This document shows, piece by piece, positions 58,369-63,359 of a stretch of DNA of 64,000 bases. The stretch lies in the NCBI RefSeq assembly GCF_018596315.1, contig NZ_JAHEAG010000009.1, positions 1 through 64,000 on the forward strand, in the 5' to 3' direction. A program made the position numbers and the translations under genes. How positions within the stretch are numbered: the first letter of the stretch is position 1; each line of letters opens with the position of its first letter. The DNA is from Bradyrhizobium sp. SRL28 (GTDB lineage: Bacteria > Pseudomonadota > Alphaproteobacteria > Rhizobiales > Xanthobacteraceae). The notes beneath the pieces were generated by a model, which worked only from the letters and a program-made list of their open reading frames with translations, did not search any database and was not told the DNA's origin.

Positions 58369-59871
58369 TCAGAAGCGGAAGCGCAATCCGACCGTGGGAG
58401 CGATGTTGTTGCGCTGGAGAAAGCCGAAGGCCAATCCGCCATTCACTTGCGTGAACATGATCCCGGAATAGAGATCCCACTTTGGTGCAAACCGCCAATC
58501 GACAGCGGCAGAGATCCCGTCGAATGTCCCGGCGCATTGCGGGTGCTCGGTGCCGAAGCAGGGGGCGGGCCCCCCGGCGGCGGTGCCGAAGAAGGAATTC
58601 TGGATATAATGGTAATAGGCGCCGATCACATCCAGGTTTTCAGTAACAGCGTACTTGGCCCCTGCCCACATGACTTGGAAAGTCTTGTTGCCAAGACCGT
58701 TCACGCCGAAGGCGGTATTGTTGATATTCGTGTTGTTGAGCGCATCGCAGCCCAGACAAAGAAAGGTTCCCGCGATATTGGTGAAAGCGGTCTGCGGATT
58801 GCTGGGCGCCATGTATCGAATATGCTCGTAACCGGCGTACAACTTCAGCGGTCCGTTCGTGTATTTGGCCACGAGCATCACGGCTTCATTGTCGGAGATC
58901 GTCGCTGTGAGCGTCTGTGGCAAGAACGGCGGTATCGGCACCCCATTGGCGTTATTGCTTCCCGGCGCAAGTGCGAGCGACACGGAATCTCTGACATGGC
59001 TGTAAATTGCGTCGACCGAGAGCACACCTTTGCCCCACGTTGAGATATCGCCGCCGGCTTGGAACTGGTATGCACCATTGGAGGCATTGTTCTGGGCGTA
59101 GCCGCCGAACTGCCACAGCGCCGCCGCCCGGAACTGGCCGACGTTGATCCGATATTTCAGTGACGTCGAGTTTCTACAGTTTTCGGTATTGCCGCCGCCA
59201 CAAGTTATTCCCTGAAAGCCGATGGGTGAGAAGCCGTAAGAGGCGCCGAACGGATCGTAGTCGAAGACAGCGTCCAGGGTCAGCGAGTTCTGTCGGAAAA
59301 CGGTCAGGGTGCCATAGGTCGGAGAACTGACGCCGACATAACCTTGGCCGTTGAACCACTGGCCCGCTCGGCTTGAATCCGAGTAGGCGGTTGCAAAGTT
59401 TTGGGGGATGCCGGCGTTCGCGGCAATCGATCCCGGTCCATTGGAGAATCGCAAGGAATATGGGTCGAAGCCGGCATCCAGAGCAAAGACAACAGAGACG
59501 TTCCCGCCGATCGGCTCAGTTCCTTTGATTCCAATGAATGAATTGGTCAACGCGTTGGGTGCAGGGCCCCAAAGCGCCGAGTTGTTCTGTTTCTGGATTA
59601 AGTATGAGGCTCCGACAGCGGATCGTGGGTCCCACGGCGCGCCGTGGCTCTGCCAGCCGAACCCCGCGTCAATCGTGCCGTAGACCGTGATGCCCCGCCA
59701 AGTCAGCTGGCAGTCCGTGGCAATAAAGTCCCAACCGTCGGTGCACAGCTTGGGCGCGGCCGTTGCCGCGGAAGCCCCGGTCGGAACGACGTCGGCGGCC
59801 CACGCCTCAACTCCGTAGGAGGCGCCAGCGGCTGCGATGATCACTGCAGCAAAAATGCCGAGCTTTGACAT
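58369..59871 (-). CDS. Outer-membrane porin (general porin, Gram-negative type)
   Basis: A 500-residue protein: signal peptide (MSKLGIFAAVIIAAAGASYG), then GITVYGTIDAGFGWQSHGAP, alternating beta strands and the final aromatic residue in VGLRFRF, as needed for BAM-dependent insertion. Pattern and length fit the Porin_4/OmpC-like family. Pairs of cysteines (LCLGC, CGGG-TENC) occur in loops, which is unusual for porins. It converges with the AraC gene. Confidence 0.8.
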   Translation of the reverse strand: MSKLGIFAAVIIAAAGASYGVEAWAADVVPTGASAATAAPKLCTDGWDFIATDCQLTWRGITVYGTIDAGFGWQSHGAPWDPRSAVGASYLIQKQNNSALWGPAPNALTNSFIGIKGTEPIGGNVSVVFALDAGFDPYSLRFSNGPGSIAANAGIPQNFATAYSDSSRAGQWFNGQGYVGVSSPTYGTLTVFRQNSLTLDAVFDYDPFGASYGFSPIGFQGITCGGGNTENCRNSTSLKYRINVGQFRAAALWQFGGYAQNNASNGAYQFQAGGDISTWGKGVLSVDAIYSHVRDSVSLALAPGSNNANGVPIPPFLPQTLTATISDNEAVMLVAKYTNGPLKLYAGYEHIRYMAPSNPQTAFTNIAGTFLCLGCDALNNTNINNTAFGVNGLGNKTFQVMWAGAKYAVTENLDVIGAYYHYIQNSFFGTAAGGPAPCFGTEHPQCAGTFDGISAAVDWRFAPKWDLYSGIMFTQVNGGLAFGFLQRNNIAPTVGLRFRF

Positions 59872-60148: not shown

Positions 60149-60174
60149 CAACGCCATAGGCCATTGCGGGTTGA

Positions 60175-60490
60175 CGGCGCTGTCCGAGACGTGAGGCTCC
60201 GAAACCGGAGCCTCAAATCATGCGCTACGAACTCAGCGATTATGAATGGAACCGCCATCAAGCCGATGCTGCCGAACAAGTCGCGCGGCGTTCGGCGTGC
60301 AAGTGTCCGTCGCGTGCTCAATGGCATCTTTTGGGTCCTGCGTTCAGATGCGCCATGGCGCGATCTGCCAGAGACATATGGTCCCGCACCACTTGTCACA
60401 ATCGCTTCGTTCGTTGGGCGGGCTGGCGTCTGGGACCAGATCGTGGAAGCACCTGGCCGCCGGCCATAACGCGACGGTGCAGATGAGTAA
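60175..60490 (+). mobile_element. IS5-family transposase remnant (5' part only)
   Basis: MRYELSDYEWN starts at ATG 60220. Other frames continue IKPMLPNKSRGVRR, NGIFWVLRSDAPWRDLPETY and GVWDQIVEA, which are the N-terminal blocks (DUF4096 region) of IS5-type transposases. At least two frameshifts occur, and everything after about residue 85, including the DDE core, is missing. The 45 bp before the ATG (gaggctccgaaaccggagcc) include an inverted repeat typical of the element's left side. Confidence 0.7.
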
Positions 60491-60984: not shown

Positions 60985-61782
60985 GTGAAGGTCACCACCG
61001 GAAGAAGAGGCATACTGAAAACATTCGCTTTGAGCCTGGCTACAGGCGCGGTCGGCATTGCATCGGCTGCGGCCAAGCCTGCAACGGCGGCCATCGAATC
61101 CGCATTGACGCCGCCCGGTGCAACACATCTTGACGCGTTAAAGAAGCGTCTCGCGCAGGCACCTCGCCGCCGCGACTTCAAGACGGTGCCGATGATCCTG
61201 AACAGCTCAGAACAATGGGATCACGAAGCATTGATGGAAGTGCTGTCCTACGGTCCTGCGCCAAGGCAGGCATGGGATAACACCGACATCGCGGGCCCCT
61301 GGCTGAACCTGATGCGCAACGCGCTCAATTCGCAGATATGGTCGTTCAAGCATCCTGACTTCCTCACCGTCTCGGTTACGCATGGTACGGCGAATCTTGC
61401 GCTCTATGATCAGGCCACGTGGGACAAGTATCAGCTCGCACAACTGGCTGGCGAGGAATTCCAGACCAATACATCCATCGTCGAACGGAAAGCGGCGGCT
61501 GCCAATCCGGCGATCTATGAGGATCCGGCGGGCCCGTTCTCCGGCGACGATAATTCGATCCCGGCCCTGATGCGGCGCGGCGTTGTCTTCTTGTCCTGCC
61601 ACAATGCAATTTGGGAACAGGCTGCGGCCCTTATCAAAGTCGATATCAATCCCGACAAGCTCTCTCATGCCGCGCTCGCGGCGGAATTGACCAACCATCT
61701 GGTGGATGACGTGGTTTTGATCCCCGGTGCCGCCGGCACCCTGCCCGAGTTGCAGCAGGTCGGCTTTCACTACGCAAAATAG
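60985..61782 (+). CDS. Tat-exported DsrE-like protein
   Basis: A 265-residue protein starting with GTG. The leader GRRGILKTFALSLATGAVG is of twin-arginine type. The mature part has FLTVSVTHGTANLALYDQAT, LMRRGVVFLSCHNAIWEQAA and VVLIPGAAGTLPELQQVGFH. The order HG-a-laL-D---W-KY, L--RGV-FL-C-NA and VPA/G-G--L-ELQ--GF is what I know from periplasmic DsrE-fold proteins; the cysteine in FLSCHN would be the sulfur-carrier site. It is followed by a DoxDA-like gene after 14 bp, which fits a sulfur role. The assignment is inferred. Confidence 0.6.
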   Translation: MKVTTGRRGILKTFALSLATGAVGIASAAAKPATAAIESALTPPGATHLDALKKRLAQAPRRRDFKTVPMILNSSEQWDHEALMEVLSYGPAPRQAWDNTDIAGPWLNLMRNALNSQIWSFKHPDFLTVSVTHGTANLALYDQATWDKYQLAQLAGEEFQTNTSIVERKAAAANPAIYEDPAGPFSGDDNSIPALMRRGVVFLSCHNAIWEQAAALIKVDINPDKLSHAALAAELTNHLVDDVVLIPGAAGTLPELQQVGFHYAK

Positions 61783-61796
61783 CACCGGGTTAGGTC

Positions 61797-62942
61797 ATGA
61801 CATCTTTTCTTCGCCGTATTGGTTTCGCATCGGCTGCCCTCGCCCAGGTCAAAGACGGTACGGCTGCCGCCTCCCATCCAGCCGCTGCCCTACGCGGCAG
61901 GACAGACGCGCTGCGCAGCGCTGCGCTCGCTCTGCTTTCGATCCGCTTCGTTCAAGGATTCATCTATTGGGGCGGCGGCTCGCGCCGCTTCATCTACGCG
62001 CCCGCCAAACTCGATCCGAACACCGCGAGCTGGATGGCCAACAAACTCCAATCGGCGATGCCGGGCGCCTTGCTCGGAACGGATCAGCTCATCGCCTATC
62101 TGCTACATCATTTCTATTTTCTCTATAGTTCGCTCATTCTGTTCAGCGCAGCCGAGCTCATCACTGGACTGCTCCTGATCACCGGCCTGCTCACCCGGGC
62201 AGCGGCTTTGGTCTCAATCGGCCTCTCCGTGATGCTGATGCTGATGTTCGGATGGCAGGGTGCAACCTGCATAGACGAATGGACAATGGCGGCCTGCAAT
62301 TCGGCGATCGGCGCCACGTTGATGCTTGGCGGCAGCGGCGCCTTCTCGCTCGACAACGCGCTGCTGGCACGCAGGCCTGCGCTCGCCGGCCGGCCGTGGT
62401 TTCGGTGGATGTCTGGAGCCTTGCCGCTTCCGATGCGGAGTGAGTCGTTCCAGAGAATCGCGGTCGCGGCGCTTGCTGCGACTGTCATTTTCAGTGTTGC
62501 CACCTACGATTACCTTCGCGGCTCGGTGGTCACTCCGTTTCATGGTGGACCGGTTAGTCCGAGCAAGCATCACCTTAGTCTAACGGACGGTGTCCTGCTC
62601 CCGAACGGTGCCGTGCGCTTCCACGCCTATCTCGATGGCGGCACGCCGGCAGCGCCTTCCAATGTGATGACTGCAGTCCTGACGTCCATTGATGGCTCTG
62701 CGCTCGAGCAATGGGATGGAACCACGTTGAGCCACCTGCCGGCTTCGGCAATCGCCAACGAGTTCGCCTACAATCGCTTTGCATCGGGTCCGTTCGGGCT
62801 TCGCGCGCAGATGGGTGCCATGGCGACGATCACGCTACCCGCCGCGAACGTTTCGGACACTGGCAACCTCTCTCGCGCCGCGACGTTGCAGTTGCGCACC
62901 GTCAACGGCAACGTATTCAACGTCAGGATCAGAACGGAATAG
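61797..62942 (+). CDS. Fused DoxD-DoxA thiosulfate:quinone oxidoreductase-like protein
   Basis: A 381-residue protein. The N-terminal half has four to five helices with FVQGFIYWGGGSRRFIYAPA, LITGLLLITGLLTRAAALVS and FGWQGATCIDEWTMAACNS, the DoxD/TQO large-subunit family. The C-terminal third (PNGAVRFHAYLDGGTPAAPS to TVNGNVFNVRIRTE) is a periplasmic beta domain as in DoxA. Archaeal TQO oxidises thiosulfate to tetrathionate and reduces quinone; in bacteria such fusions are little studied. Two cysteines in the GATC--EW--AAC loop may be functional. The gene follows the DsrE-like one as an operon. Confidence 0.75.
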   Translation: MTSFLRRIGFASAALAQVKDGTAAASHPAAALRGRTDALRSAALALLSIRFVQGFIYWGGGSRRFIYAPAKLDPNTASWMANKLQSAMPGALLGTDQLIAYLLHHFYFLYSSLILFSAAELITGLLLITGLLTRAAALVSIGLSVMLMLMFGWQGATCIDEWTMAACNSAIGATLMLGGSGAFSLDNALLARRPALAGRPWFRWMSGALPLPMRSESFQRIAVAALAATVIFSVATYDYLRGSVVTPFHGGPVSPSKHHLSLTDGVLLPNGAVRFHAYLDGGTPAAPSNVMTAVLTSIDGSALEQWDGTTLSHLPASAIANEFAYNRFASGPFGLRAQMGAMATITLPAANVSDTGNLSRAATLQLRTVNGNVFNVRIRTE

Positions 62943-63016
62943 AGCGAAAGAAAGTGAGGCATGTTGCGTTCACTTTTGGAACAGCCACTCGTCCAAATCG
63001 AATCAGGAACAGTCAC

Positions 63017-63359
63017 ATGGCCATGCTTGAATGGAACACTCATCGTCAGCAGCTCAATGTCTGGATTGGCGAATTACCAAGCTTAACCCCGACACGGTCA
63101 AGGGCTATCAAGCCCTGACCGCCGCTGGTCACAACACAAATCTGCTCGGGCCGAAGACCCGTGAACTGATCTCGCTCGCGGTCGCCGTCACCGTCCGGTG
63201 CGACGGCTGTATCGCCGTGCACGCCGAAGCGGCGGCGCGTCACGGCGCTTCGCGGGTAGCGATCGCTGAGGTGCTCGGTGTTGCGACCACCGTCAATGCC
63301 GGTGCAGCCCTTGTCTATTCCAGCTGGACGCCCATGAGCAGGTCGCCGCTGCGCCATGA
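63017..63359 (+). pseudogene. AhpD/carboxymuconolactone-decarboxylase-like protein, two one-base deletions
   Basis: The start reads MAMLEWNTHRQQLNVWIGEL. After a missing base near 63076 comes KLNPDTVKGYQALTAAGHNT, RELISLAVAVTVRCDGCIAV and HAEAAARHGASRVAIAEVLG. After another near 63320 the end reads LDAHEQVAAAP before TGA. The CDGCIAVH-EAA--HGA segment is the redox/catalytic C-x-x-C...H motif of AhpD-like peroxidase partners. The reading frame that seems open to 63552 is therefore misleading. Confidence 0.7.

Follow-up and report, generated by a model that had tools for sequence, protein, structure and literature searches.

The closest described relatives of the gene pair considered here belong to Acidithiobacillus ferrooxidans (the literature is cited throughout from excerpts). 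There, AFE_0042 was listed in 2009 as a twin-arginine translocation (Tat) signal protein within a doxDA operon that includes AFE_0044 (PMC2754497). The excerpted part of a 2019 review describes a tsd-doxDA cluster, attributes an active thiosulfate dehydrogenase (TSD) to AFE_0042, with a second copy, AFE_0050, and states that the structure and mechanism of TSD are still to be clarified (PMC6335251). In a figure legend of a 2024 review, an electron acceptor in the scheme for TSD and thiosulfate:quinone oxidoreductase (TQO) is marked '?' (PMC10859504). We examined a stretch of 64,000 nucleotides from Bradyrhizobium sp. SRL28 (contig NZ_JAHEAG010000009.1 of GCF_018596315.1, positions 1 to 64,000 of the forward strand), hereafter the window, in which a tsd-like gene is followed after 14 bp by a fused doxDA gene. 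The soil bacterium Bradyrhizobium, unlike A. ferrooxidans, is not an acidophile. We propose, with a probability of roughly 0.6, that this pair constitutes a minimal unit for thiosulfate oxidation in the periplasm, of the TSD/DoxDA type known from Acidithiobacillus, in which TSD would act through a Cys-S-thiosulfonate and DoxDA would deliver electrons to quinone.

The preliminary description of this locus had regarded the combination as undescribed. That claim does not hold, as the pairing is already described from the mine-dwelling A. ferrooxidans (PMC2754497, PMC6335251, excerpts). What is likely new is the probable active site of TSD, Cys205, and a probable answer on the destination of the electrons. 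A search of the open PMC literature, which leaves most subscription papers and preprints outside, found no paper whose listing or excerpts place TSD in the DsrE fold or connect its acceptor with the gene neighbourhood; PMC4864549 and PMC9774590 (excerpts) had nothing to add on TSD. The predicted fold, the single invariant thiol and the linked partner make the questions of TSD mechanism and acceptor simple to test.

We compared the window with Acidithiobacillus, a genus in which 10 of 17 genomes carry the TSD family. Genome G834, which we take to be A. ferrooxidans ATCC 23270, partly from its gene layout, encodes tsd, a solute-binding protein, doxDA, two rhodaneses (the second named from its place and sequence) and a ResA-like protein, followed on the other strand by doxDA, a solute-binding protein and tsd, with the tsd-sbp-doxDA order occurring twice. 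This gene set equals that of the A. ferrooxidans cluster in the figure legend of the 2019 review (PMC6335251). Both TSD copies, presumably corresponding to AFE_0042/AFE_0050, fall in the same NCBIfam equivalog as the window protein (416.8 and 412.6 bits). The window TSD is 54% identical to each over the aligned length, and the window DoxDA is 52% identical to both G834 DoxDA copies. The two loci share the twin-arginine signal and a doxDA gene downstream on the same strand, whereas the solute-binding protein and rhodaneses of the A. ferrooxidans tsd-sbp-doxDA-rhd arrangement are missing from the window, where only the 14 bp separate the two genes. The Acidianus ambivalens TQO, composed of DoxD and DoxA, also shares both domains with the window, where they are fused in one chain.

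By profile match, the first protein of the pair is a member of the thiosulfate dehydrogenase family NF052225, aligned over its full length (403 bits against a cut-off of 300, E = 4.4e-121, profile positions 1-259 of 259). Its N-terminal part contains TGRRGILKTFALSLATGAVGIASAAAK, and the cysteine motif reads GVVFLSCHNA. The twin arginine at residues 7-8 is RR in 14 of the 17 rows of alignment A1, the other three rows beginning at or after the site, and the signal is common to both G834 copies; TSD would be exported folded through Tat. Other searches were uninformative: the window TSD matched no Pfam family at E<=1, its best hit among PDB sequences was an unrelated repeat protein (E = 0.31), the same protein was the best hit of profile A2 among solved structures (E = 0.71), and the best PHROGs match had an E-value of 0.13, with none for DoxDA. 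Membership of the TsdA family was rejected, the protein having no CxxCH motif and only one cysteine. The dihaem thiosulfate dehydrogenase TsdA catalyses the same overall reaction as that reported for TSD (PMC4423706, excerpt), but it is a c-type cytochrome, whereas TSD lacks CxxCH; TsdA-like proteins adjoin tsd in other bacteria.

The structure of TSD was modelled by AlphaFold2 from 74 alignment rows (predicted local distance difference test score, pLDDT, of 87.2; predicted template modelling score of 0.83). Residues 39-265 mostly exceed a pLDDT of 90 and residues 1-38 fall below 50. The best VIA-align entries were a designed cage (8uja, Z 13.2) and 2pd2 (Z 13.1), the latter superimposing with a root-mean-square deviation of 1.2 Å over 105 residues of a 108-residue chain. 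Further DsrE/DsrF-fold proteins followed, namely 1l1s (Z 11.5), YchN (1jx7, Z 9.5), DsrE (3pnx, Z 8.6) and 3mc3 and 2qs7 (both Z 8.3), and the first unrelated entry scored Z 5.1. Relative to 2pd2, 1l1s, 1jx7 and 3pnx, the predicted fold of residues 92-265 and the cysteine position are alike, and the window TSD adds a Tat-type signal and an extra N-terminal part (39-91). Comparison by hhalign with DsrE-type profiles, built from 20 proteins encoded in genomes of the window's order or, in a narrower alignment, 14, gave probabilities of 91 and 94 over 54 columns each (192-265), and Cys205 was placed on the DsrE-family cysteine in both alignments. The fold assignment rests on the VIA-align realignment of Foldseek candidates and on this profile comparison, the E-values being those of a single comparison. 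The Pfam DsrE family, PF02635, does not recognise the window TSD and has no match in its own genome. The model thus predicts a DsrE fold for a protein lying outside the Pfam DsrE family, and the earlier label 'DsrE-like' appears right at the level of fold. The absence of such a fold, named beforehand as a result that would speak against the idea, was not obtained.

Cys205 is the sole cysteine of the window TSD. Together with His206 it is invariant in 74/74 rows of alignment A2, and exactly one cysteine occurs in 59 of these rows, some of which are partial. The candidate cysteine of the FLSCHN motif singled out in the preliminary description is therefore both conserved and aligned with that of DsrE. 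A. ferrooxidans aside, the family occurs beyond the acidophiles, in Bradyrhizobium, Methylobacterium, Burkholderia and Caballeronia, and may count in soil sulfur cycling.

The second protein is, on its domain matches, a DoxDA fusion. DoxD (PF04173) was matched at 1.6e-29 (103.4 bits, cut-off 22.7) and DoxA (PF07680) at 7.6e-8 (32.8 bits, cut-off 27). The reading-frame layout, the spacing and the fusion are as first described. The DoxD motif GWQGATCIDEWTMA, containing Cys158, is invariant in 15/15 aligned DoxDA rows. We file the protein as a DoxDA fusion and not under the NCBIfam equivalog for the TQO large subunit DoxD, NF041179, because it scores 94.2 bits against a cut-off of 300; both G834 DoxDA copies miss this cut-off as well (84 and 77 bits). 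No match to PDB sequences was found. Modelling of DoxDA from 14 rows reached a moderate pLDDT of 74.8, with strands between residues 260 and 380. Structure matches to the DoxA domain are middling (best Z 8.7, an archaeal pilus protein), and the membrane part is barely covered by structure matching; we make no fold claim for the DoxA domain.

A neighbourhood survey had been set beforehand as a test of the pairing, and it showed the co-occurrence with DoxDA whose lack would have spoken against the idea. The link to thiosulfate oxidation made in the preliminary description appears right as well. Among 265 Bradyrhizobium genomes, TSD is present in 31 and DoxDA (E<=1e-30) in 18, all of which are among the 31 (Fisher 5.7e-20). 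In 20 of 21 copies, doxDA lies downstream of the tsd match on the same strand within 1.1 kb, at 18-80 nt in seven copies, one of them behind a truncated tsd (G609), and at 1042-1109 nt in 13, a gap that fits a solute-binding gene. The sole unlinked copy is that of G608, where tsd and doxDA are on different contigs. The linkage of tsd and doxDA thus far exceeds what chance would give. More widely TSD is rare, found, with the window's own genome counted both times, in three of 199 genomes of the order (two over the cut-off) and in six of 398 genomes of the phylum. The SRL28 genome holds one TSD match and one DoxD match.

In a wider survey, we ran six-frame profile searches on the neighbourhoods of the best 80 of 317 confirmed relatives; ten examples served to name the partner families with Pfam and NCBIfam. 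A solute-binding protein (PF13531), which weakly resembles binders of sulfate, thiosulfate and molybdate, is present in 62/80 loci. A TsdA-like cytochrome occurs in 46 and a c4-like dihaem cytochrome in 38, with either in 47; hits of these two profiles may include c-type cytochromes of other kinds, for instance SoxA or SoxX. DoxDA is found in 15 loci and never together with the cytochromes (0/80; Fisher 1.6e-7, kinship uncorrected), while 18 loci have neither, some ending soon behind tsd at a contig end. The solute-binding gene separates tsd from doxDA in 10 of the 15 DoxDA loci; it is missing from the window, as from its nearest relatives L036, L041 and L050. On a tree built from alignment A2, which comprises 73 of the 80 loci and the window (L040, L048, L071, L074, L086, L097 and L102 were left out as near copies or short), the partner label is also clustered: a minimum of nine changes is needed, against a shuffled mean of 14.2 with 0/500 as low, the 16 of 74 rows without a label being uncounted.

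The TsdA-like partners look catalytic. We checked the cysteines of 40 of the 46 matches, those with a best stretch of at least 600 bases, and all 40 have two CxxCH motifs and one further cysteine, set in a sequence resembling RLQGCFRYS. The Arg four residues before this cysteine and the Ser four residues after it are conserved in at least 90% (n=40), a spacing that matches Arg119, Cys123 and Ser127 of TsdA (PMC4423706, excerpt). A SoxB-like gene is found at eight of the 80 loci (L058, L061, L074, L075, L082, L087, L089 and L093); the L058 gene (8090-9529) reaches 339 bits against the SoxB model, whose cut-off is 550. Seven of these eight loci have a TsdA-like match and five a c4-like match, and they possibly encode a Sox-like route in which TSD could substitute for SoxYZ. 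TSD is also encoded in metagenome assemblies, on contigs that binning assigned to Acidobacteria and Planctomycetes (L050, L057 and L112). The L050 protein, on a 4-kb contig, is 85% identical to that of the window and may reflect a binning error or a recent transfer.

Both genes of the pair appear to be under purifying selection, with ratios of nonsynonymous to synonymous substitution rates (dN/dS) against B. valentinum of 0.23 for tsd and 0.33 for doxDA, which we count in favour of a working unit. Over three pairwise comparisons each, the ratios range from 0.23 to 0.57 for tsd and from 0.31 to 0.41 for doxDA. At some loci elsewhere in Bradyrhizobium the pair has decayed: a DoxA-only remnant is present at L038 (6861-7151), DoxDA has an internal stop in G800 (C1:1804497-1805582) and a short tsd match precedes an open DoxDA in G609 (C4:2168014-2168427).

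Behind doxDA lies the AhpD-like gene that had been described as broken by two indels, and comparison with the open B. valentinum copy (7970-8386 of L036) bears this out, revealing two frame-changing gaps. The first gap is shared by the genus-mate G758 (L016), which has further gaps of its own, so that decay is likelier than sequencing error, and an assembly error as the cause of the lesions was rejected on the same ground. AhpD as a third partner was likewise rejected, as only 5/80 tsd loci have an AhpD-like match: L036, L039 and L040 at 83-86% identity (best piece), and L079 and L101 at 35-42%. The gene is probably not part of the working unit and may be a decaying passenger in this lineage.

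In the mechanism we propose for the window pair, thiosulfate would be coupled oxidatively to the thiol of Cys205, yielding a Cys-S-thiosulfonate, from which a second thiosulfate would release tetrathionate. The membrane-anchored DoxDA would take up the two electrons and pass them to quinone. The thiosulfonate step is proposed for TSD by analogy: reaction of a DsrE protein with tetrathionate yields Cys-S-thiosulfonate (PMC4175335), and TsdA works through the same adduct (PMC4423706). In other bacteria, the acceptor module would be replaced by c-type cytochromes, usually including one of the TsdA type. More tentatively, and with somewhat less than even confidence, we suggest that NF052225 as a whole is a haem-free plug-in enzyme of DsrE fold acting via Cys-S-thiosulfonate, whose acceptor would be whichever redox module adjoins it, either DoxDA leading to quinone or a pair of TsdA-type and c4-type cytochromes leading to a cytochrome oxidase.

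Several observations weigh against the proposed unit. Thiosulfate oxidation by the Bradyrhizobium TSD is a prediction, and it would be unusual for a two-electron dehydrogenase to work with a lone thiol and no haem, flavin or metal. In the cytochrome variant, which mostly has a TsdA-type protein, that protein should oxidise thiosulfate itself, which would also suit TSD as a carrier. The excerpted review describes the Acidianus TQO as DoxA and DoxD and reports no TSD from those archaea (PMC6335251). TSD need not always have DoxDA, because DoxDA is not matched, at the threshold used, in 13 of the 31 TSD genomes of the genus, and without the solute-binding protein that most loci possess, the window unit may be reduced. 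The test of partner exclusion is uncorrected for kinship, and the starred branches of the tree force only two changes. Foldseek alone gave a suggestive best E-value of 3.7e-3 for the TSD model and nothing at E<=0.001. Finally, against the nearer G758, dN/dS is 0.57 for tsd and 0.41 for doxDA, and purifying selection is less clear.

A role as sulfur carrier had been the first suggestion for this protein. It is not our first reading, since NF052225 is a named enzyme family, and it stays the main rival. TSD would then carry thiosulfate or sulfane sulfur, and DoxDA or the TsdA-type cytochrome would oxidise thiosulfate and load it onto Cys205, in the way proposed for SoxAX and SoxYZ. The bound group would then leave as tetrathionate or be cleaved by a SoxB-like protein. 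The DsrE fold with its lone cysteine would suit a carrier, each of the two partner types is known or likely to oxidise thiosulfate itself, and the TsdA-like partners have the apparent catalytic residues of TsdA (PMC4423706). The SoxB-like genes beside tsd point the same way, as do DsrE3A, which hands thiosulfonate to TusA (PMC4175335), and Erythrobacter flavus, in which TsdA and SoxB jointly convert thiosulfate to sulfur (PMC9426585). In the other scale lie the report that AFE_0042 encodes a thiosulfate dehydrogenase with activity (PMC6335251) and the enzyme name of the NCBIfam equivalog, and we consider the carrier reading rather doubtful. Alternatively, TSD and DoxDA could be two independent thiosulfate-oxidising enzymes in one operon, as in S4I models for A. 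ferrooxidans. Reviews do name TQO and TSD as alternatives (PMC10859504, PMC10427800, excerpts), and the TSD genomes of the genus without DoxDA would be in keeping with independence. However, no DoxDA genome lacks TSD (0/18), nearly all copies are closely linked, and the mutual exclusion of doxDA and cytochromes beside tsd suggests one shared job; this explanation is improbable.

We find it very improbable that the locus is going out of use. The IS4/5-type fragment at 60164-60466, the decayed AhpD-like gene, the internal stop in DoxDA of G800 and the DoxA-only remnant of L038 would be compatible with a dispensable locus, as would Sox genes elsewhere in the genome: a SoxB above the cut-off (836 bits) is encoded on contig C24 with an adjoining SoxA/TsdA-type domain, and a search covering SoxB and these haem domains placed the latter at two sites. 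Against this, tsd and doxDA are both open at full length, and their dN/dS values lie within the ranges given above. The TSD/DoxDA unit proposed here hence remains our preferred reading of the pair, whose features are collected in Table 1.

Table 1. Positions of the tsd-doxDA pair, its domains and the gene behind it in the 64,000-nucleotide window.
Feature	Coordinates	Strand	Details
tsd-like gene	60985..61782	+	GTG start, 265 aa, TAG end at 61782; NF052225
N-terminal signal of TSD, twin arginine at residues 7-8	60985..61098	+	From alignment rows; low-confidence in the model
Predicted DsrE/DsrF-fold core of TSD, residues 92-265	61258..61779	+	VIA-align
Cys205-His206 of TSD, candidate catalytic thiol	61597..61602	+	Invariance and hhalign
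doxDA	61797..62942	+	ATG start, 381 aa; fused DoxD (membrane) and DoxA
DoxD domain, DoxDA residues 47-191	61935..62369	+	PF04173
DoxA domain, DoxDA residues 242-371	62520..62909	+	PF07680; predicted beta-rich, without cysteine
AhpD-like (CMD) gene	63017..63359	+	PF02627, 1.4e-15; two frame-changing gaps

Upstream of tsd, the 60164-60466 fragment on the plus strand is a remnant of an IS4/5-family transposase (IS, insertion sequence; DUF4096, 4.3e-14), with similar reading in other frames. It sits between tsd and a minus-strand open reading frame of 500 residues (58369-59871), which has no Pfam match and is porin-like by eye. Downstream, beginning about 0.5 kb behind tsd-doxDA and reaching to about 4.4 kb, past the end of the window, the minus strand (63485-67306 in window numbering) holds another set of sulfur-oxidation genes adjoining the pair. 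It encodes a SorA-like sulfite dehydrogenase (558 bits, cut-off 600) together with a small c-type cytochrome, a histidine kinase and a response regulator.

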